Source: Kaistia defluvii (lineage in GTDB: Bacteria > Pseudomonadota > Alphaproteobacteria > Rhizobiales > Kaistiaceae). From it: a stretch of 64,000 bases of DNA. Position numbers and translations under genes: made by a program. The notes beneath the pieces were generated by a model. That model worked only from the letters and a program-made list of their open reading frames with translations, did not search any database and had not been told where the DNA came from. The DNA lies in NCBI RefSeq assembly GCF_026343955.1, contig NZ_JAPKNI010000001.1, positions 434,001-498,000 of the forward strand, read 5' to 3'. Shown piece after piece: positions 24,875 to 33,675 of this stretch; within the stretch, counting starts at the first letter, position 1; each line of letters opens with the position of its first letter.

Positions 24875-25714
24875 CTACTCGCCGCGGCGCAGGCGCTCGA
24901 GCGCCTCGAGGCGGTCGCGCGCCACGCTGCTCTGCTCGGCCACGCCCGCCGTCAGCGCCTCGGCGAGCAGCAGCAGGCCGGCACTGGAATCCCACACCGA
25001 CGGCGCCGGCACATGGGCCGGCAAGACATGGCGGGCAACCTTGGAGATCGGCGAAAGCCAGGGATCGGTGATCAGGATGATCCGCGCGCCCTGCCGCGCC
25101 GCACGCTCGGCAAAGACGACGAGATCGTCGGAATAGCGCCGGATGTCGAACAGGACGATCACGTCCTGCTTGCCGATGTCGAGCAGCCGGTCGAACCAGG
25201 CCGCCGGCTGGCCTTCGATATGCTGGACATGCGGCCGCAGCACGCGCAAATGCGTGGCCATATAGGCGGCGATCGCATCGGTGAAGCGGCCGCCCAGCAG
25301 ATGCAGCGGCCGCCTTGGGTCGGCGATGAGCCGTACCGCGGCGTCGAACTCCTCGCGCGGCACGTTTTCCGCCGTGGCGCGCAGATTGGCGATCGCGGCC
25401 AGCGCGAACGCGTCGAGCGGATCGCCGGATGGAGACGTGCCGCCCTTGGTCAGGGGCGTGGCGCGCTGCGCCGCCAGTTCCTGCTTCAGCCCGTCCTGGA
25501 AAGCGCCATAGCTGGAAAAGCCGAGCTTGGCGATCATCCGCAGCACGGTCGGCGCGCTGACGCCGGCGGCCTCGCCGAAGCGGGCGGCGGTATCGAGCCC
25601 CGCCATCGGATACCCGGCGAGCAGCCGATGCGCCGCGCGGCGCTCATTCGGCGTCAGCCGCCCGAGATCGCGCCGGATCTGTTCGGCGATCGAAGCCCCA
25701 TTCCCGCTGTTCAT
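24875..25714 (-). CDS. MurR/RpiR family transcriptional regulator
   Basis: This 279-residue protein has the N-terminal RpiR helix-turn-helix domain (about residues 8-80: LTPNERRAAHRLL, FGEAAGVSAPTVLRMIAKLGFSSY) and a C-terminal SIS sugar-phosphate/ligand domain (about 115-260: LHLLGGRFTDAIAAYMA, VIVLFDIRRYSDD, IILITDPWLSP). RpiR proteins sense phospho-sugars or other small ligands. It is divergent from the amidohydrolase-permease-ligase operon, with 122 bp between start codons, and is the obvious candidate regulator of it. ATG 25714 is used; a start ten codons earlier is possible. Confidence 0.88.
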   Translation of the reverse strand: MNSGNGASIAEQIRRDLGRLTPNERRAAHRLLAGYPMAGLDTAARFGEAAGVSAPTVLRMIAKLGFSSYGAFQDGLKQELAAQRATPLTKGGTSPSGDPLDAFALAAIANLRATAENVPREEFDAAVRLIADPRRPLHLLGGRFTDAIAAYMATHLRVLRPHVQHIEGQPAAWFDRLLDIGKQDVIVLFDIRRYSDDLVVFAERAARQGARIILITDPWLSPISKVARHVLPAHVPAPSVWDSSAGLLLLAEALTAGVAEQSSVARDRLEALERLRRGE

Positions 25715-25751
25715 GCCACTCTGCCGCCGCCCCTGTTGCCGCATCGGAAGG

Positions 25752-25812
25752 CAGTTGACGCCTGTATTTCAGAATTGACGCGCCACACCCACCCTGTAAC
25801 GTATATTTCAGT
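25752..25812 (+). promoter_or_regulatory. Putative RpiR operator repeats and promoter
   Basis: Two similar blocks, CTGTATTTCAGAATTG (25761-25776) and GTATATTTCAGTTCG (25801-25815), share GTAT(AT)TTCAG in the same orientation and lie in the short divergent control region. TTGACG occurs twice (25755 and 25775) as possible -35 elements. The TTTCA core is like sites reported for some MurR/RpiR proteins; assignment is tentative. Confidence 0.35.
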
Positions 25813-25836
25813 TCGGCGGCATCGGGGAGTCGAACG

Positions 25837-26700
25837 ATGTCGCAGCACCGGAAGCAGGCGCGACGTTCGGGGGATCGGGTCATGGCGAATGGCTTGGCAG
25901 GCGCGGCACGCGAAGCGGCAACGCCCTTGCTCGCGAGCGACGAGCCACCCGTTGTGGACCTGCAGGACAGCGGCAACGGTCCCTTCGTCTTCCTGTGCGA
26001 ACACGCCTCCAACCGCCTGCCCAAGGCGCTCGGCGACCTCGGCCTGCCGGCCGAGGCACTGACGCGCCACATCGCCTGGGATCCCGGCGCGGCCGCGATG
26101 ACGCTCGGCCTCGCCACCCGGCTTGGCAGCCCGGCGATCCTGCAGAGCTATTCGCGCCTCGTCATCGACTGCAATCGCGAGCCGGGCCTGCCGGACGCGA
26201 TCACGACGCTGTCCGAAGATACCGAGATCCCCGGAAACCGGGATCTCGGTCCGGCGGCACGGCAGCAGCGCGTCGATGCGATCTGGGCGCCGTTCCACGC
26301 GGCGATCGACGACCTCGTCGCGACGCGCATCGCGGCCCGGACCCCCACCGTGATCGTCACGCTGCATTCCTTCACGCCGGTCTATCGCGGCCTGCCGCGG
26401 CCCTGGCATGTCGGCATCATTTCCAGCGGCGAGCGCAGCTTTGCCGAGGCGATGCTGTCGGCGCTCCGGCGCGATGCCGCGCTGGAGGTCGGCGACGACG
26501 AACCCTATTCGGCGCGCGACCATGTCGACTACACGATCCGCCGGCACGGCTTCGACCGCGGCCTGCCGCACGTGATGATCGAGGTCCGCAACGATCTCGT
26601 GCAAAGCGCCACCGATGTCGCGGCCTGGGTAGACCGGCTGGCCGCCGCGCTCGTCGAGTGCGCCACCGCCACCGGCCTTCCACCGACCCAAGAAGACTGA
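25837..26700 (+). CDS. N-formylglutamate amidohydrolase-like protein
   Basis: This 287-residue protein belongs to the FGase/HutG amidohydrolase family. Landmarks are FVFLCEHASNRLP (about residues 47-59), HIAWDPGA (about 78-85), a DCNREPG segment (about 110-116), VTLHSFTPVYRG (about 171-182) and VMIEVRNDLV (about 249-258), which carry the His, Asp and Glu of the zinc site. It hydrolyses an amide bond on glutamate. Since no histidine-degradation genes are present, the neighbouring glutamine-synthetase-like ligase and dehydrogenases suggest its substrate is a gamma-glutamylated intermediate. ATG 25837 follows GGGGAG by seven bases; ATG 25882 is an alternative. Confidence 0.82.
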   Translation: MSQHRKQARRSGDRVMANGLAGAAREAATPLLASDEPPVVDLQDSGNGPFVFLCEHASNRLPKALGDLGLPAEALTRHIAWDPGAAAMTLGLATRLGSPAILQSYSRLVIDCNREPGLPDAITTLSEDTEIPGNRDLGPAARQQRVDAIWAPFHAAIDDLVATRIAARTPTVIVTLHSFTPVYRGLPRPWHVGIISSGERSFAEAMLSALRRDAALEVGDDEPYSARDHVDYTIRRHGFDRGLPHVMIEVRNDLVQSATDVAAWVDRLAAALVECATATGLPPTQED

Positions 26701-26895
26701 GGGAGATGACGCTTTCCTTCGCGACGGCGAACGAGACCAACAAGCCAGCAAGCAGGGCGGGCCGAACGGCGCAGACCGAAAGCCCGAAACGACCCGAGCG
26801 GATATTGCCGCCCGGCACCGAACAAAGGGGAACTTCATCCGATCCAGATCGCAGCCGGGCTGCGGCCGGACGGCAACAGAGACGGGAGCAGTTTG

Positions 26896-28476
26896 ATGAG
26901 TCACATCGAGGGGTACTCTGAAAGCGACAAGAAGGCGGACGTCCACGTCCTTCACTCCATGGGCTACGCGCAGGAACTCGAGCGGCGCATGAGCCGCTTC
27001 TCGAACTTCGCGATCTCGTTTTCGATCATCTGCATCCTGTCGGGCGGCATCAATTCGCTTGCCCAGGCAACGTCGGGCGCCGGCGGCGCCGGCATCGGCA
27101 TCGGCTGGCCGGTGGGCTGCCTGATCTCGGGCGTCTTCGCGCTGGCGATGGCGCAGATCAGTTCCGCCTATCCGACGGCCGGCGGCCTCTATCACTGGGG
27201 CTCGATCCTCGGCAACCGCTTCACCGGCTGGGTCACCGCCTGGTTCAACCTGCTCGGCCTCGTCACCGTGCTCGGCGCCATCAATGTCGGCACCTATTAT
27301 TTCTTCGTCGGCGCCTTCGGCCCGACCTTCGGCTGGGAAGACACGACGACTTCCCGCGTGCTGTTCCTCACCGTGCTGACCGGCGCGCAGGCGCTGATCA
27401 ACCACATGGGCATCGGCCTCACCGCCAAGCTGACCGATTTCTCCGGCTATCTGATCTTCGTCACCGCGCTGGTGCTGGCGATCGTCTGCCTCGCCGCCGC
27501 GCCGAGCTATGATTTCGCGCGGCTGTTCACCTTCGGCAATTATTCCGGCCAGGCGACGATGGCCGCCGATGGCACGCTGACCGGCGCGCCGGTCTGGCCG
27601 GCGGTTTCGGGCTGGTGGGTGTTCCTGCTCGGCCTGCTGCTGCCGATCTACACGATCACCGGCTACGACGCATCGGCGCATACCTCCGAGGAGACCCTGA
27701 AGGCGGCCCATTCCGTGCCGCGCGGCATGGTGATGTCGGTCGTGTGGGCGGCCGTGTTCGGCTACATCATGCTGTGCTCGTTCGTGCTGATGCTGCCCAA
27801 CATGGACGATGCCGCCAAGCAGGGCTGGAACGTGTTCTTCTGGGCGATGGACGTCCAGGTGAAGCCGACCGTGAAGATCATCCTCTATGTCGCGATCTTC
27901 GTGTCGCAATTCCTCTGTGGCCTGGCGACGGTCACCTCCGTGTCGCGCATGATCTTCGCCTTCTCGCGCGATGGCGGCCTGCCGGCGTCGCGGGCGCTGT
28001 CGAAGGTGAGCCCGAGATTCCGCACGCCGGTGGCGGCGATCTGGACCGGCGCGATCCTCGCCGTGCTGTTCGTCTGGGGCTCGTCGCTCGTCTCGATCGG
28101 CGATACGCCGGTCTACACGATCGTCGTCTCCTGCACGGTCATCTTCCTGTTTTTCTCCTTCGTCATCCCGATCGTGCTGGGCCTGCTCGCCTATGGCACG
28201 CCCAAATGGCCGGCCATGGGGCCGTGGAATATGGGCCGCGGCCTGTTCTCGCTGTTCGCGATCCTGTCCGTCGTCGCTATGGTGCTGATCTTCTTCATCG
28301 GCGTTCAGCCGCCGAACGAATGGGCGCTCTACATCACAATCGGCTTCCTGGTGCTGACGGCGATCATCTGGCTCGCCTTCGAAAGCCGCCGCTTCCAGGG
28401 CCCGCCGATCGGCGACGTCATCGCCAAGCGGCAGGCCGAAATCGCCGCGGCCGAAAAGGCGGTCGGCGAGATCTGA
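26896..28476 (+). CDS. APC-superfamily amino acid/amine permease
   Basis: This 526-residue membrane protein has about twelve hydrophobic segments and resembles the ACT (amino acid/choline) group of the APC superfamily. Landmarks are FSNFAISFSIICILSGGI (first helix), SSAYPTAGGLYHWGSIL, ITGYDASAHTSEET in the sixth-helix region and MIFAFSRDGGLP. Members move GABA, choline, ethanolamine or similar amines by cation symport. ATG 26896 follows GGGAG by about eight bases; a TTG just before it is less likely. Its place between an amidohydrolase and a gamma-glutamyl-ligase-like gene suggests uptake of the amine that the pathway consumes. Confidence 0.85.
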   Translation: MSHIEGYSESDKKADVHVLHSMGYAQELERRMSRFSNFAISFSIICILSGGINSLAQATSGAGGAGIGIGWPVGCLISGVFALAMAQISSAYPTAGGLYHWGSILGNRFTGWVTAWFNLLGLVTVLGAINVGTYYFFVGAFGPTFGWEDTTTSRVLFLTVLTGAQALINHMGIGLTAKLTDFSGYLIFVTALVLAIVCLAAAPSYDFARLFTFGNYSGQATMAADGTLTGAPVWPAVSGWWVFLLGLLLPIYTITGYDASAHTSEETLKAAHSVPRGMVMSVVWAAVFGYIMLCSFVLMLPNMDDAAKQGWNVFFWAMDVQVKPTVKIILYVAIFVSQFLCGLATVTSVSRMIFAFSRDGGLPASRALSKVSPRFRTPVAAIWTGAILAVLFVWGSSLVSIGDTPVYTIVVSCTVIFLFFSFVIPIVLGLLAYGTPKWPAMGPWNMGRGLFSLFAILSVVAMVLIFFIGVQPPNEWALYITIGFLVLTAIIWLAFESRRFQGPPIGDVIAKRQAEIAAAEKAVGEI

Positions 28477-28482
28477 ACCTTT

Positions 28483-28514
28483 GCGGACCGGGCGGCTCCT
28501 CGCTGCCCGGTCCG
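28483..28514 (+). terminator. Stem-loop after the permease gene
   Basis: GCGGACCGGGC (28483-28493) pairs perfectly with GCCCGGTCCGC (28504-28514) around a ten-base loop, seven bases after the permease stop. No T-run follows, so it may be a weak or Rho-assisted stop or an mRNA-stability element. Confidence 0.45.
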
Positions 28515-28566
28515 CTCCCGCGGCATGCTGCCATCCCGGAGGCCCGCCTCCGGCACTGAGGCTCAC

Positions 28567-28629
28567 CGCTTCTCCGCACGGCCCGTAGGCCGTGGGCGGC
28601 CGGATCCGATCCGGCCGCCCGGAGAAGCG
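28567..28629 (+). other. Three-way-junction inverted-repeat structure before the GS-like gene
   Basis: Three nested perfect stems are present. P1: CGCTTCTCC (28567-28575) with GGAGAAGCG (28621-28629). P2: CACGGCC (28577-28583) with GGCCGTG (28588-28594), loop CGTA. P3: GGCGGCCGGATC (28595-28606) with GATCCGGCCGCC (28608-28619). The RNA would fold as a three-way junction ending 26 bases before the start codon. It could be a structured 5' regulatory element, an attenuator, or a palindromic repeat element; nothing in the sequence decides. Confidence 0.5.
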
Positions 28630-28655
28630 TTCGACGGATCGAACAAGGAACTGCC

Positions 28656-30020
28656 ATGGCCGGAAACCTGACGCTGAATGAGCTCGAGACGGCAATCGCC
28701 GACGGCACGATCGACACGGTGATCGTCGCCTTCCCCGACATGCAGGGACGCCTCGTCGGCAAGCGTTTCACCGGCCGCTTCTTCCTCGACAGCGCCATCA
28801 ACGAAACGCATGCATGCAACTACCTGCTCACCGTCGACATCGATATGGAGCCGGTGCCCGGCTACAAGGCGGCGAGCTGGAAGAAGGGTTATGGCGATTT
28901 CGTCCTGAAGCCGGACGTTTCGACCCTGCGCCGCATTCCCTGGCTCGAGGGCACGGCGCTGATGCTGGCCGATGTCTGCGACCACCATGGCGACGACCTT
29001 GCCCATGCGCCGCGCTCGATCCTGAAGGCGCAGTTGAAGCGGCTGGCCGACCGCGACATGAAGGCGTTCTTCGCCTCCGAGCTCGAATTCTACGCCTTCG
29101 ACGAGACGACCGAGAGCGCGAGCGGCAAGCGCTGGCGCGGCCTGAAGACGATGGGCGACAACATCGAGGACTACCAGATCCTCCAGACCACCAAGAACGA
29201 GCCGCTGCTGCGCGCGATCCGCAACGGGTTGATGGGCGCCGGCATCCCGATCGAGAATTCCAAGGGCGAATGGGGCCCGGGCCAGGAGGAGGTCAACATC
29301 CGCTATGCGGAAGCCCTCGAAATGGCCGACTGGCACGTCATCATGAAGAACGGCATCAAGGAGATCGCGCATCTTCAGAACCGCGCCGTCACCTTCATGG
29401 CGAAGTGGCGCTACGACCTCGCCGGTTCGTCGTCGCACATCCACTCCTCGCTCTGGGACGGCTCCGGCAAGAAGGCGCTGTTCTCCGATCCGAAGGATCC
29501 GCTCGGCATGTCGGCGACGATGAAATCCTGGCTCGCCGGCCACCTCGCCCATGCCGGCGAGATGACGGCGTTCCTCGCTCCCTACATCAACTCCTACAAG
29601 CGCTTCCAGGTCGGCACCTTCGCGCCGACCAAGGCGGTCTGGTCCGTCGACAACCGCACCGCCGGCTTCCGCGTCGTCGGCGAAGGCAAGTCGGTGCGCA
29701 CCGAATGCCGTATCGGCGGCTCCGACCTGAACCCCTATCTTGCCTTCTCCGGCCTGATCGCGGCCGGCCTGCACGGCATCGACGAGAAGCTGGAGCTGGA
29801 GCCGGCCTTTGCCGGCGACGCCTATTATGCCGCCGACCTGCCCGAGGTGCCGAAGACGCTGCGCGACGCGATCGCAGCGCTGGACGGCTCGAAGGTGCTG
29901 CGCGCGGCACTGGGAGACGAGGTGGTTGAGCACTATCTGCACACCGCCCGCTGGGAGCAGCACGAATATGACCGCCGCGTCACGGATTGGGAGTTGCAGC
30001 GCGGCTTCGAGCGGTATTGA
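28656..30020 (+). CDS. Glutamine-synthetase family gamma-glutamyl-amine ligase
   Basis: This 454-residue protein is a glutamine synthetase homologue of the PuuA/GlnA4/IpuC-like group rather than GlnA. Catalytic landmarks are present: FFASELEFYAF (Glu ligands, about residues 133-143), GPGQEEVNIRYAE (about 207-219), SSSHIHSSLWDG (about 257-268) and RTECRIGGSDLNPYLA near 350. The adenylylation-site region of GlnA is not apparent. Such enzymes join glutamate to an amine (putrescine, ethanolamine, isopropylamine). AAGGAA precedes ATG 28656. With an aldehyde dehydrogenase, Fe-type alcohol dehydrogenase and amidohydrolase nearby, an amino-alcohol substrate is the best guess. Confidence 0.85.
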   Translation: MAGNLTLNELETAIADGTIDTVIVAFPDMQGRLVGKRFTGRFFLDSAINETHACNYLLTVDIDMEPVPGYKAASWKKGYGDFVLKPDVSTLRRIPWLEGTALMLADVCDHHGDDLAHAPRSILKAQLKRLADRDMKAFFASELEFYAFDETTESASGKRWRGLKTMGDNIEDYQILQTTKNEPLLRAIRNGLMGAGIPIENSKGEWGPGQEEVNIRYAEALEMADWHVIMKNGIKEIAHLQNRAVTFMAKWRYDLAGSSSHIHSSLWDGSGKKALFSDPKDPLGMSATMKSWLAGHLAHAGEMTAFLAPYINSYKRFQVGTFAPTKAVWSVDNRTAGFRVVGEGKSVRTECRIGGSDLNPYLAFSGLIAAGLHGIDEKLELEPAFAGDAYYAADLPEVPKTLRDAIAALDGSKVLRAALGDEVVEHYLHTARWEQHEYDRRVTDWELQRGFERY

Positions 30021-30027
30021 ACACATA

Positions 30028-30066
30028 GAGTGTGCATTTGACACACTCATGTTTATTCCCTAGCGT
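30028..30066 (+). promoter_or_regulatory. Promoter and palindromic operator of the toxin-antitoxin pair
   Basis: GAGTGTG (30028-30034) and CACACTC (30042-30048) form a perfect inverted repeat separated by seven bases. TTGACA (30038-30043) lies inside it and is followed after 17 bp by TAGCGT as a weak -10. An operator over the -35 is what autoregulated toxin-antitoxin promoters usually look like. It starts eight bases after the ligase stop. Confidence 0.6.
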
Positions 30067-30093
30067 CACCTGAACTCTTTGGAGGGAGGCCCC

Positions 30094-30531
30094 ATGAGCA
30101 AATATGACCCGCTGGCACACTTCCTCGAACGCTGCACAGAGTCGGAGGTCCGGATGACCTTCGAGGAGATCGAGGGAATTCTGGGCTTTCCGCTTCCGCC
30201 ATCCCAAACGCATCGGGCCTGGTGGAGCAACAATGCCAGCAACAACGTCATGACGAAGGCGTGGCTGTCGGCCGGCTTTGAAACCGAGCAGGTGGACCTG
30301 GAAGGCCGCAAGCTCGTATTTCGTCGGGTCAAGCCTATCGCCTCGTCCCGCCAGACAGGCGAAGGCGGCAAAGCGCCCGGCAAGAAGTCGCCTCGCCGCA
30401 ACCCGCTCTTTGGCTTCATGGCCGGTACGTTCACGATCGCACCGGGGACCGATCTGACGGCTCCGGCGGATGGCGAATGGGCCGATATGGCATGGGGCAA
30501 ATCAAGCCGGGGTCGTGAGGATGCCGCGTGA
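30094..30531 (+). CDS. Putative antitoxin with DUF7662-like N-terminal domain
   Basis: This 145-residue protein begins with a compact domain (about residues 1-82) that resembles the DUF7662 family: YDPLAHFLER, MTFEEIEGILGFPLPPS, HRAWWSNN and AWLSAGFETEQVDLEGR. A basic linker (about 84-108) leads to a tail, FGFMAGTFTIAPGTDLTAP and then EWADMAWGK, that resembles the toxin-binding end of Phd/VapB-type antitoxins (G..KG...IA.DFD.PLP). GGAGGGAGG lies just before ATG 30094. Its stop overlaps the start of the PIN toxin as GTGA. The N-terminal domain would serve as the DNA-binding or partner domain; that is inference. Confidence 0.6.
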   Translation: MSKYDPLAHFLERCTESEVRMTFEEIEGILGFPLPPSQTHRAWWSNNASNNVMTKAWLSAGFETEQVDLEGRKLVFRRVKPIASSRQTGEGGKAPGKKSPRRNPLFGFMAGTFTIAPGTDLTAPADGEWADMAWGKSSRGREDAA

Positions 30532-30941
30532 CGCAGCTTCTTCTCGACACCTGCGCCATGATCTGGGTCGCAGGCAACGCCGATCTGGCCGAGCCCGCCA
30601 TCGCGGCGCTGGACGATGCCGAGGACGAAGCCATGTCGATCTTCCTGTCGCCCATATCGGCATGGGAAATCGGGCTCCTCGTCGCGCGCAATCGACTGAC
30701 TCTGCCGACGCGACCGAAGGCCTGGCTGGATCGGCTCCTGAAGGCGCCCAATCTAAGGCTGGCCCAGTTGCCGCCGGGCGTTCTCATCGATTCCGCTTTT
30801 CTACCCGGAACTCCCCCGCGCGATCCCGCCGACCGGATCATCATAGCGACAGCCCGGGAATATGATCTCACAATAATGACTCGAGACCGCGTTATCCTTG
30901 ACTATGCTGAAGCCGGGCACGTCCGGGCTATTGCTTGTTGA
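30528..30941 (+). CDS. PIN-domain ribonuclease toxin (VapC type)
   Basis: This 137-residue protein is a PIN-domain nuclease. The acidic metal-binding residues are in place: Asp7 (LLLDTCAMIW), Glu47 (SPISAWEIGLL), Asp102 (DPADRIIIATA) and Asp120 (IMTRDRVILDY). Toxins of this group cleave tRNA or rRNA when free of antitoxin. The start is GTG 30528, overlapping the antitoxin stop by four bases. The aldehyde dehydrogenase gene begins only ten bases after its stop, so the pair sits inside, and may be co-transcribed with, the catabolic operon. Confidence 0.85.
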   Translation: MTQLLLDTCAMIWVAGNADLAEPAIAALDDAEDEAMSIFLSPISAWEIGLLVARNRLTLPTRPKAWLDRLLKAPNLRLAQLPPGVLIDSAFLPGTPPRDPADRIIIATAREYDLTIMTRDRVILDYAEAGHVRAIAC

Positions 30942-30951
30942 AAGAACCACT

Positions 30952-32355
30952 ATGAACGCCCCCGTCCTGAAGATCATCACGCCCGTCGATGGCTCGGTCT
31001 ATGCCGAGCGGCCGCTGGCTTCCGAAGCCGATGTGCTGGCCACGCTGGAAAAGGCCAGGGTGGCGCAGCGCGACTGGCGCACCGTTCCCGTCTCCGAGCG
31101 TGAAAGAATGGCGACCGCCTTCGTCGATGCCATGGTGGCCGAGAAGGACAAGGTGGCCGAGCTTATCGCCTGGCAGATGGGCCGGCCGATCCGCTATGGC
31201 CATGGCGAGATGCGCGGCTTCGAGGAGCGCGCCCGCTACATGATCGCCATCGCGGCGAGGTCGCTGACCGATATCGACGCCGGTCCGAAGGAAGGCTTCA
31301 AGCGTTATATCCGCCGCGAGCCGCTCGGCGTCTGCCTGAACCTGCCGGCCTGGAACTTCCCCTACATGACGGCGCTCAATGCCGTGCTGCCCGCCATCCT
31401 CGCCGGCAACACCGTCGTCATGAAGCATTCGAGCCAGACGGCGCTGGTGGCCGAGCATTTCGCCTCATCCTTCGCCCAAGGCGGCCTGCCGGCGGACGTA
31501 TTCCAGTTCGTCAACATGACGCATGAGACGACCGACAAGGTGATCCGCTCCGGCCTCGTCGACCAGGTCGGCTTCACCGGCTCGACCGCCGGAGGCCGCA
31601 ACATCATGGCCTCGGTCGCCGGCGCGCCGAACTTCCCGGCCACCTGCCTGGAGCTGGGCGGCAAGGATCCGGCCTATGTCCGACCGGACGTCAACCTCCC
31701 CTTCGCGGTCGAAAACATCGTCGATGGCGGCTTCTTCAATTCCGGCCAGTCCTGCTGCGCCATGGAGCGCGTCTATGTGCATGAGGCGGTCTATGACCGC
31801 TTCGTCGAGGGCGTCGTCGCCACCGTCAACGCCTACAGGCTCGGCAGCCCGACCGATCCGGACACGACGCTCGGACCCGTGGTGCGTGCCTCGGCGGCCG
31901 CGTTCATCCAGGGCCAGATAGACGAGGCCATCCGCCAGGGCGCCAGGGGGCTGATCGATCCAAAGCATTTCCCGGAGGCCAAGGCCGGCACGCCCTATCT
32001 CGCGCCGCAGGTGCTGGTCGATGTCGACCATTCGATGCGGGTGATGAAAGAAGAGACCTTCGGCCCTGCCTTCGGCATCATGAAGGTCAAGTCGGATGAG
32101 GAAGCGATCCGGCTGATGAACGATTCCGAATTCGGCCTCACCGCCGCGATCTGGACCGAGGACCTCGCCGCTGCGGAAGCGATCGGCGACCGGATCGAGA
32201 CCGGCACGGTGTTCATGAACCGCTGCGACTATGTCGATCCGGCGCTGGCCTGGACCGGCGTCAAGGCGACCGGACGCGGCGCCAGCCTGTCTGAGGTCGG
32301 CTACGAGCAGCTGACCCGGCCGAAGAGCTTTCACCTTCGCACCAAGACCGACTAG
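30952..32355 (+). CDS. NAD(P)-dependent aldehyde dehydrogenase
   Basis: This 467-residue protein has the complete ALDH signature: NLPAWNFPYMTALNAVLPA with the catalytic Asn, the SSQT cofactor region, GSTAGG, LELGGKDP with the general-base Glu (about residue 235), and FFNSGQSCC with the catalytic Cys (about 268). It oxidises an aldehyde to the acid. In this operon the substrate would be the aldehyde formed by the following iron-type dehydrogenase, possibly still gamma-glutamylated. ATG 30952 is chosen since it gives the normal ALDH start; upstream codons belong to the toxin gene. Confidence 0.92.
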   Translation: MNAPVLKIITPVDGSVYAERPLASEADVLATLEKARVAQRDWRTVPVSERERMATAFVDAMVAEKDKVAELIAWQMGRPIRYGHGEMRGFEERARYMIAIAARSLTDIDAGPKEGFKRYIRREPLGVCLNLPAWNFPYMTALNAVLPAILAGNTVVMKHSSQTALVAEHFASSFAQGGLPADVFQFVNMTHETTDKVIRSGLVDQVGFTGSTAGGRNIMASVAGAPNFPATCLELGGKDPAYVRPDVNLPFAVENIVDGGFFNSGQSCCAMERVYVHEAVYDRFVEGVVATVNAYRLGSPTDPDTTLGPVVRASAAAFIQGQIDEAIRQGARGLIDPKHFPEAKAGTPYLAPQVLVDVDHSMRVMKEETFGPAFGIMKVKSDEEAIRLMNDSEFGLTAAIWTEDLAAAEAIGDRIETGTVFMNRCDYVDPALAWTGVKATGRGASLSEVGYEQLTRPKSFHLRTKTD

Positions 32356-32357
32356 GT

Positions 32358-32487
32358 CACTTCGCCTCTCCCTGAGGGAGAGGTCGGCCCCCAGGGCCGG
32401 GTGAGGGTTTACGCCCTATCCGGATACCCTCCCAAACCCTCTCCCACCGGCTTCGCCGTCGACCTCCCCTCTGGGGGAGGTGAAGCA
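32358..32487. repeat. CTCTCC palindromic intergenic repeat, copy B
   Basis: CACTTCGCCTCTCCCTGAGG at the left is mirrored by CCTCCCCTCTGGGGGAGGTGAAG at the right; inner parts GGGTGAGGGTTT and AAACCCTCTCCC also mirror. It fills the gap between the aldehyde dehydrogenase and the alcohol dehydrogenase, and the latter's likely ribosome-binding purines (AAAGGA) follow it directly. Confidence 0.75.
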
Positions 32488-32499
32488 AAGGATCCCGAG

Positions 32500-33675
32500 A
32501 TGCTCGACAACTACGCCTCGCTGAACGCGAACTGGTCCTATCCCACCGCCATCCGCTTTGGCGCCGGCCGCATTGCCGAGCTGCCGGCGGCGCTGACGGC
32601 GACAGGCATTCAGAAGCCGCTCTTCGTCACCGATCCCGGCCTCGTGGCGCTGCCGATCGTGAAGAAGACGCTGGCGATCCTCGACGAGGCCAAGGTCGAA
32701 TACGCCGTCTTCTCCAAGGTCGACGGCAATCCGACGCTGGCCAATCTCGATGAGGGCCTCGCCGTCTACAAGGCCGGCGGGCATGACGGCGTCGTCGCCT
32801 TCGGCGGCGGCTCGGCGATGGATATCGGCAAGACCATCGCCTTCATGTCGGGCCAGACGCGGCCGGTATTCGATTTCGAGGACCGCGCCGACTGGTGGAC
32901 CCGCGCCGACCCGAAGGGCATCGCCCCGATCATCGCCGTGCCGACCACCGCCGGCACCGGCTCGGAAGTCGGCCGCGCCTCGGTCGTGACCGATCCGTCC
33001 GACCACACCAAGAAGATCATCTTCCATCCGCTGATGCTGCCGAAGATCGTCATCTCCGACCCGGAGCTGACCGTCGACCTGCCGGCGAAGATCACGGCCT
33101 GGACCGGCATGGACGCGCTGTCGCATTCGCTGGAGGCGTTCTGCAGCCCGTTCTTCCATCCGATGTCGGCCGGCATCGCGCTCGAAGGCATGCGGCTGGT
33201 CAAGGACTGGCTGCCCAAGGCCGTGAAGGACGGCCACGACATCCAGGCGCGTTCGCAGATGCTGATCGCCTCGTCGATGGGCGCCGTCGCCTTCCAGAAG
33301 GGACTCGGCGCGATGCATGCCATGAGCCATCCGAGCTCAAGCCTGCGCGGCACGCATCACGGCCTGACCAACGCCGTCGTCATGCCCTATGTGCTCGCCT
33401 TCAACGGCAAGGCGATCGACGCCAAGCTGGCCGCCGCCGCCCGCTATCTCGACCTGCCCGGCCAGAGCGCGTCGAGCTTCGTCGACTGGGTGCTGGCGAT
33501 TCGCGAGGAACTGGCCATTCCGCACACGCTGAAGGAAATCGGCGTGGATGAAACCGTGCTGCCGGAAGCGGCCCGCATGGCGGAGCTCGACCCCTCGACC
33601 GGCGGCAATCCCATCGCCGTGACCGCCGCCGACTATGATCTCCTGTTCCGGAACGCAATCAACGGCAGGCTCTGA
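32500..33675 (+). CDS. Iron-containing alcohol dehydrogenase
   Basis: This 391-residue protein belongs to the group III (Fe-ADH) family. Landmarks are FGGGSAMDIGKTIA (NAD site, about residues 104-117), VPTTAGTGSEV, and the metal ligands in DALSHSLEAF (Asp, His about 206-210) and AMHAMSHP ... GTHHG (two further His about 272-288). It interconverts an alcohol and an aldehyde with NAD(P). Immediately after an aldehyde dehydrogenase and a gamma-glutamyl-ligase-like gene it is well placed to oxidise the hydroxyl of an amino-alcohol adduct. AAAGGA precedes ATG 32500. Confidence 0.9.
   Translation: MLDNYASLNANWSYPTAIRFGAGRIAELPAALTATGIQKPLFVTDPGLVALPIVKKTLAILDEAKVEYAVFSKVDGNPTLANLDEGLAVYKAGGHDGVVAFGGGSAMDIGKTIAFMSGQTRPVFDFEDRADWWTRADPKGIAPIIAVPTTAGTGSEVGRASVVTDPSDHTKKIIFHPLMLPKIVISDPELTVDLPAKITAWTGMDALSHSLEAFCSPFFHPMSAGIALEGMRLVKDWLPKAVKDGHDIQARSQMLIASSMGAVAFQKGLGAMHAMSHPSSSLRGTHHGLTNAVVMPYVLAFNGKAIDAKLAAAARYLDLPGQSASSFVDWVLAIREELAIPHTLKEIGVDETVLPEAARMAELDPSTGGNPIAVTAADYDLLFRNAINGRL

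Follow-up and report, generated by a model that had tools for sequence, protein, structure and literature searches.

What is an operon built around a glutamine-synthetase-like ligase doing in Kaistia defluvii, and how did two small genes come to lie inside it? The operon sits in a 64,000-nucleotide stretch (G000:C1:434001-498000, here called the window) of a 4.9 Mb genome. A gene for an RpiR-type regulator is divergent from genes for an N-formylglutamate-amidohydrolase-type enzyme (FGase), an APC-superfamily permease (APC), the ligase, an aldehyde dehydrogenase (ALDH) and an iron-type alcohol dehydrogenase (Fe-ADH), in that order. The original prediction, made from the letters alone, had named these six genes, and open reading frames and Pfam matches find all of them at the positions and on the strands claimed. 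However, it overlooked two more genes in the 931 bp that separate ligase and ALDH (30021-30951), which encode a DUF7662 protein and a PIN-domain protein (Table 1). Gene content and analogy with a published operon make it very probable that the operon serves ethanolamine catabolism by gamma-glutamylation. The pathway, even with its APC permease, is ordinary in kind. What deserves pursuit is that the same gap of the operon has repeatedly been occupied by a toxin-antitoxin-like family.

The predicted pathway and its relatives

In the proposed route the APC permease would import ethanolamine and the ligase would join it to the gamma-carboxyl of glutamate in an ATP-driven reaction. The Fe-ADH would oxidize the resulting gamma-glutamylethanolamide to the aldehyde, the ALDH would convert the aldehyde to gamma-glutamylglycine, and the FGase-type enzyme would release glycine and glutamate. 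This order of reactions, with gamma-glutamylglycine as the product from ethanolamine, had been proposed from the gene list, and it is the published pathway of Phaeobacter sp. MED193, with the same enzyme families in the same order (PMC10132767). The Phaeobacter operon (MED193_10021-10056) encodes RpiR, gamma-glutamylglycine amidohydrolase (GGAH), the TRAP transporter EtoVWX, ethanolamine gamma-glutamylase (ETAGA), gamma-glutamylacetaldehydeamide dehydrogenase (GAADDH) and gamma-glutamylethanolamide dehydrogenase (GETADH). The binding protein, ligase, ALDH, Fe-ADH and GGAH are raised on phosphoethanolamine, and EtoX binds ethanolamine with a Kd of 7.9 uM and does not bind four named analogues (PMC10132767). 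The same paper, citing Vetting et al. (2015), states that related genes function likewise in Chromohalobacter and Agrobacterium. With these two genera and Phaeobacter named there, the pathway is already known and is not new.

The window shares with Phaeobacter the families and order of RpiR, GGAH, ligase, ALDH and Fe-ADH, a likeness also seen in Rhodobacteraceae loci. It has a ligase of the Csal_0679 clade (see below), Fe-ADH, ALDH and FGase genes in the ligase operon and a divergent RpiR gene. In contrast, Phaeobacter and Chromohalobacter (Csal_0678/0679) have TRAP EtoVWX where the window has the APC, and the window adds the embedded DUF7662-PIN pair. EtoVWX was treated as non-essential to the assignment since the transporter place varies. 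Operons on pSymB of Sinorhizobium meliloti Ak57 and pSK03 of Rhizobium leguminosarum have the arrangement of the window, with RpiR divergent from FGase, amino acid permease, ligase, ALDH and Fe-ADH genes and permeases 80-81% identical to the APC. They differ in having a gap without the DUF7662-PIN pair and in their other neighbours, and their records leave the pathway unnamed.

Streptomyces offers a looser parallel. The GlnA4 route had been cited as a relative, and this stands as far as an ethanolamine-glutamylating ligase, an ALDH and, in some species, a permease gene are concerned (PMC6529630). The S. coelicolor glnA4 cluster (SCO1610-1615) differs in its short-chain dehydrogenase, glutamine amidotransferase and regulator, and neither Fe-ADH nor FGase is among its listed genes (PMC6529630). 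No short-chain dehydrogenase or glutamine amidotransferase accompanies the ligase among the window genes scanned.

The absence of a microcompartment, also part of the original prediction, was borne out. EutB and BMC shell proteins, the two marks by which the Eut microcompartment pathway was sought, had no match in the window genome, and the E. coli controls for both were positive. Glutamylation would shield the amine and avoid free acetaldehyde, so that no shell would be needed.

Is the grouping of these genes more than an accident of one genome? The ligase occurs at E <= 1e-120 in 127 of the 297 genomes sampled from the order, and a shell-free ethanolamine route therefore looks frequent there. 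Lipid head groups commonly yield ethanolamine, which has been linked to phospholipid breakdown (PMC10132767). Without the window genome and one genome's second hit there were 126 hits, and every third was taken until 40 loci had been sampled, each with 8.5 kb on either side of the ligase (several end at contig ends). Around these 40 ligases Fe-ADH was found in 34 loci, ALDH in 33, FGase in 27 and RpiR in 23; ligase, Fe-ADH, ALDH and FGase were all together in 25. None of the four neighbours was found in 20 control stretches lying 50 kb away in 20 of the same genomes (20 of 23 eligible), where the only finds were relatives of short-chain dehydrogenases, in five. The gene grouping exceeds chance, and the co-conservation check named with the original prediction went in its favour.

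Two variants of the operon were seen in passing. Three Hyphomicrobiales metagenome-assembled genomes (L019 5503-9939, L031 and L037) have a MocR regulator and a GMC oxidoreductase upstream of ligase, ALDH and Fe-ADH genes, replacing RpiR, FGase and TRAP; an additional DAO-type oxidoreductase lies upstream in L019, the one locus checked for it. On pAA03 of Aminobacter aminovorans (L058 5175-15342) the enzyme operon has no transporter and adjoins bhcRABC, a glyoxylate route that its glycine could feed.

The choice of amine

The window genome has five places with glutamine synthetase (GS) family genes, and the best match to the operon ligase in the species-level collection is that of Kaistia terrae (95% identity). 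A phylogeny of the ligase had been suggested as a check, and a 64-row tree sets it apart from GlnA, PuuA and IpuC. The rows are the window, 44 of 48 relative loci, 12 loci from plasmid records, E. coli PuuA, four paralogues from the window genome and two PDB chains; the outgroup branches are long and were flagged by the tree program, and S. coelicolor GlnA4 is absent from the rows. The window ligase falls in a 51-row Pseudomonadota clade (support 100/99) with ligases of Sinorhizobium, Rhizobium and TRAP-type operons and with PDB 5dm3, which is Csal_0679 of Chromohalobacter according to its title. Outside this clade are the genome's own GlnA (L001), L002, L004 and L005, PuuA and the annotated ipuC of pTC1. 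Ligases of Embleya and Nonomuraea (about 50% identity) belong to an actinobacterial branch of their own. Two observations concern the paralogues. L002 groups with PuuA, and the frames beside it resemble, on visual inspection, genes for an aminotransferase and a polyamine-type binding protein. L004 and L005 adjoin FGase-family genes, each near a frame that resembles a cysteine hydrolase by eye.

The six residues given as metal ligands in GlnA4 (PMC6529630) map to E142, E144, E205, E212, H261 and E350 of the window ligase, and they are invariant in 30 aligned members. Other positions depart from GSI. E327 becomes F322 (F331 in GlnA4), the tyrosine of GGYFPVPP aligns to D172 (one GlnA4 model has D186), and D50 aligns to P68 in a loosely aligned stretch. 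D50 and Y179 were placed in the GlnA row where we take them to be. An AlphaFold model of the window ligase (pLDDT 76.3, pTM 0.84) has PDB 11zs as its top structure match, followed by 5dm3. In the tree 11zs, a 2026 entry whose title calls it the glutamine synthetase of Brucella melitensis, belongs to the operon's amine-ligase clade, and because of this placement the title is possibly a generic one.

What if the ligase were a true glutamine synthetase serving ammonia assimilation, with its neighbours there by chance? The title of 11zs, the closest solved structure, would suit this, and the NCBIfam GlnA model gives 225 bits, although this is below its 429-bit cut-off. The replacements at E327, at the GGYFPVPP tyrosine and, in its loosely aligned stretch, at D50 argue otherwise, as do the separate GlnA (L001) and the neighbours kept in 33-34 of 40 loci versus 0 of 20 controls, and such a role is scarcely credible. 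Glutamylation of a polyamine, as by PuuA, or of an alkylamine, as by IpuC, would be in keeping with the general likeness of the parts, and the ALDH does match aminobutyraldehyde dehydrogenases. However, the 203 bits scored against NCBIfam GGputSyn compare with a 650-bit cut-off, the ligase lies outside the PuuA/IpuC branch, and the genome has L002 as a separate PuuA-grouping ligase. The putrescine (Puu) pathway, moreover, needs no Fe-ADH. A substrate of either type is very improbable. All three assignments (glutamine synthetase, PuuA-type and IpuC-type) were rejected on NCBIfam scores, the ligase tree and the residue alignment.

Perhaps the chemistry is the same and the amine is another amino alcohol, such as L-alaninol, 1-amino-2-propanol or serinol, which would yield gamma-glutamyl-alanine or a similar amide. 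The window ligase belongs to a 12-row subclade (support 100/98) that is sister to the 39-row group containing Csal_0679, and it has the loop IDMEPVPG versus LEMATPGG in 5dm3. PDB 4xf5, with the same chain as 4uab (see below), presumably holds 2-amino-1-propanol. Nevertheless, Pseudoxanthomonas is in the same subclade and has the same loop, yet its operon carries an Eat-like permease. In addition, the window APC shares 81% identity with the permease of the S. meliloti operon, whose ligase is across the split. A different amino alcohol is thus unlikely, and ethanolamine is the preferred amine.

The transporter place bears on this choice. In the 40 sampled loci it holds EtoX in 19, an APC in five and an Eat-like permease in three; none of these was found in 13, and no locus had two of them. 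The family nearest to the Eat-like permease is the ethanolamine permease family TIGR00908, at 368.3 bits and so just short of the cut-off (381.75). For the TRAP binding protein encoded in the Shimia operon (L020) there is a match to PDB 4uab/4xf5 (E 4.6e-189), and the chain of 4uab is, we assume, Csal_0678. Csal_0678 binds ethanolamine (PMC4646407). A structure model of the L020 protein was of unusable quality (pLDDT 40.5). Because the place holds TRAP, an Eat-like permease or an APC, the window APC is predicted to import ethanolamine, and the operon would thus predict a further ethanolamine permease. The window genome has no close match to EtoX (its best EtoX-like proteins are only 25% identical) and no match to TIGR00908. 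No description of this APC was seen in search listings and abstracts, which is not proof of absence. On a Thermomicrobium plasmid an annotated eat gene is found close to a related ligase.

Several observations weigh against the ethanolamine assignment. None of the six operon proteins (RpiR, FGase, APC, ligase, ALDH and Fe-ADH) reaches an NCBIfam cut-off. The best family matches of the APC (TIGR00907, then TIGR03428, both below cut-off) are not ethanolamine permeases, and the best family of the Fe-ADH, far below cut-off, is 4-hydroxybutyrate dehydrogenase. The operon is also not uniform. The 13 sampled loci without EtoX, APC or Eat-like permease (some on short contigs) are one example, and no ALDH was found downstream within the available stretch in 25 of 124 assessable loci. 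At this locus Kaistia granuli (L007) and K. adipata (L010) have ligase, ALDH and Fe-ADH but lack RpiR, FGase and APC; in their genomes the APC is unmatched at E <= 1e-30, and the FGase relatives found were paralogues of just 40-42% identity. Moreover, Paraburkholderia (L055) and Trinickia (L013) have relatives of the ligase (62-64% identity) that are not in this operon and adjoin homoserine succinyltransferase genes; because of this other context, ligase homology alone is insufficient to fix the amine. For the window subclade itself, ethanolamine activity is a prediction only.

The Paraburkholderia and Trinickia loci deserve a brief comment. The cluster (L055 877-8356, and L013) is annotated in L055 as aminotransferase, PLP enzyme, desaturase, amidotransferase family and homoserine succinyltransferase, and presumably resembles a rhizobitoxine-type biosynthetic cluster. 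Serinol glutamylation there is a guess, and a literature search found no paper on rhizobitoxine, serinol and glutamine synthetase together.

A gene pair between ligase and aldehyde dehydrogenase

The two overlooked genes look like a toxin-antitoxin pair. They are small and overlapping, as is typical of type II systems, one encodes a domain of a toxin family (PIN), and the PIN gene ends 10 bp before the ALDH start. The acidic positions of the PIN protein, among them the presumed catalytic ones, are invariant in 12 gap members. As for a DNA-binding domain on the antitoxin side, Pfam gives only DUF7662 in the window pair. One clue comes from locus L177, where a Cro/C1-type HTH (HTH_3) replaces DUF7662 before a similar tail and is followed by a PIN protein of the same group. 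This swap suggests that DUF7662 may be the DNA-binding half of an antitoxin. A palindrome containing TTGACA lies upstream of the pair and is a candidate for an autoregulated promoter. It was listed as terminator-like only (four such were found versus 3.0 in shuffles), and a consensus promoter scan flagged nothing at 30028-30048. PADLOC had no match for the pair, the PDB had none for a PIN profile of the gap members, and a literature search found no paper naming DUF7662.

Where else does the pair occur? The tree of the order's ligases has 126 loci, window included, of which the 124 with at least 1 kb downstream are assessable. Twelve of them, again counting the window, carry the pair in the ligase-ALDH gap on the same strand (the others are L009/L236, L237, L104, L239, L106, L122, L167, L171, L177, L199 and L215). 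The DUF7662 match starts 53-99 bases past the ligase match in 11 carriers, L177 matching by its tail only, and the ALDH follows at 893-971 bases in 11, L171 having no ALDH there. In loci without the pair the median ligase-ALDH gap is 34 bases and three gaps exceed 300; L172 retains only a tail-like piece. In the 48-locus species-collection set the pair was found in no locus outside the Kaistia group.

The family is not confined to this place. PF24698 was found at at least 44 places in 40 of 297 genomes, at least nine of them in the ligase gap; these are lower bounds, because scoring was limited to at most 19 candidates per genome and passed over the three gap members in G010, G229 and G277. 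Random placement would put about 0.004 in the gap, a guide only, given that a mean genome size was assumed and the places are not independent by descent. Of 30 PF24698 places examined, 20 are paired with a PIN gene of this group, eight of those in the gap. The PIN profile, built from gap members and hence favouring them, found at least 26 places in 26 genomes among the best 14 candidates per genome, 12 in the gap. Restriction of the family to this operon was therefore rejected: 14 of 26 PIN places and 35 of 44 DUF7662 places, among those scored, are elsewhere. It precedes gatB in three loci (L256, Pfam-checked, where an amidase-family gene lies on its other side; L260 and L270, by eye) and an AFG1-type ATPase gene in two (L258 and L259, Pfam-checked).

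How the pair came to be in the gap can be approached through close relatives. The 12 carriers are scattered over the ligase tree, and a quick method needs 11 changes to explain them. Closely related full and empty operons agree on both sides of the gap. Per 150-base window, ligase identity is 96-100% for L167/L169, 93-99% for L236/L234 and 92-99% for L215/L131; ALDH identity past the first window is 86-98%, 93-99% and 96-98%, respectively. Within the Kaistia group, L234, L235 and L098 have empty gaps that resemble one another more than any of 1000 shuffles did, whereas the start of the L236 gap is unlike them (262 and 112 of 1000 shuffles were as good). Because L236 is sister to L234 and its gap start is unlike the empty gaps, the most simple account from these alignments is that L236 gained the pair and lost the old intergenic sequence. 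The start of the L236 gap does resemble that of the window gap (0 of 1000 shuffles), and the two pairs may have a shared origin or reflect exchange.

Exchange in place is suggested by the close relatives L106, L167 and L177, since their PIN proteins are only about 42-50% identical and yet an altered ALDH start (by eye) is common to all three. The PIN tree intermixes gap and non-gap members (four changes), although it is poorly resolved. A single recent insertion inherited by all carriers was rejected as a simple account, given the 11 changes and the divergence of those three PIN proteins. The change count alone is also compatible with one ancient gain followed by many losses. The pair may have entered by recombination through the flanking genes or by a site preference.

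On balance the evidence tilts towards the gap being a recurrent landing site for one toxin-antitoxin-like family (DUF7662 or HTH_3 with PIN), acquired several times independently, and found also in other intercistronic gaps such as those upstream of gatB and of the AFG1-type ATPase gene. On this account the pairs fit between the stop of the ligase and the start of the ALDH and supplant the earlier intergenic sequence. Type II pairs in intercistronic regions are known, for example relA-mazEF-mazG, dinB-yafNO-yafP and folA-ccd-apaH, where a small gene pair likewise lies between genes that adjoin without it in other strains (PMC7167474). The window family differs in its composition and in reusing one slot of a catabolic operon. 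If the recurrent-landing account is true, how pairs enter operons becomes testable on closely related full versus empty operons.

Other small frames were seen in the same gap in L018 (11359-11733), L028, L035, L024, L025, L174, L181 and L012. They include a glyoxalase-family (VOC) gene and frames guessed by eye to be SnoaL-like or LysE-like.

Regulation, gene starts and coordinates

The RpiR protein probably controls the operon through a conserved block in the divergent intergenic region. The block has one match in the window and none in 100 shuffles, and it recurs in six Kaistia-type APC loci (L006, L008, L009, L011, L050 and L098). No operator shared across families was seen by k-mers and palindromes in 55 intergenic regions.

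Table 1. Features of the operon and of the embedded pair, in window positions
Feature	Positions	Strand	Evidence or remark
RpiR/MurR-type regulator (HTH_6 + SIS)	24875-25744	-	Pfam PF01418 + PF01380; divergent from operon
Conserved block TTTCAGAATTGAC-N15-TGTAACGTA; candidate promoter/operator	25767-25803	+	RpiR-FGase divergent intergenic region
FGase-family (N-formylglutamate-amidohydrolase-type); predicted GGAH	25837-26700	+	PF05013, 151.6 bits
APC-superfamily permease; predicted ethanolamine importer	26896-28476	+	PF13520
Glutamine-synthetase-like ligase; predicted ETAGA	28656-30020	+	PF00120
Palindrome GAGTGTGCATTTGACACACTC containing TTGACA; candidate autoregulated promoter	30028-30048		Upstream of pair
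DUF7662 protein, antitoxin-like	30094-30531	+	PF24698, 58.9 bits
PIN-domain protein, VapC-like	30528-30941	+	PF01850, 45.9 bits; 4-bp overlap with DUF7662 gene
ALDH; predicted GAADDH	30952-32355	+	PF00171, 408 bits
Fe-ADH; predicted GETADH	~32500-33675	+	PF00465 + PF25137

Two gene starts differ from the mechanical open reading frames. That of the ALDH begins at 30898, and the ATG given in the table agrees with homologues. That of the Fe-ADH begins at 32401, and the probable start near 32500 was picked by eye from homologues. The FGase matches PDB 2odf (E 4.4e-53) and keeps the blocks conserved among eight aligned FGase-family members. In K. terrae (L006) the FGase frame is interrupted by one in-frame TGA.

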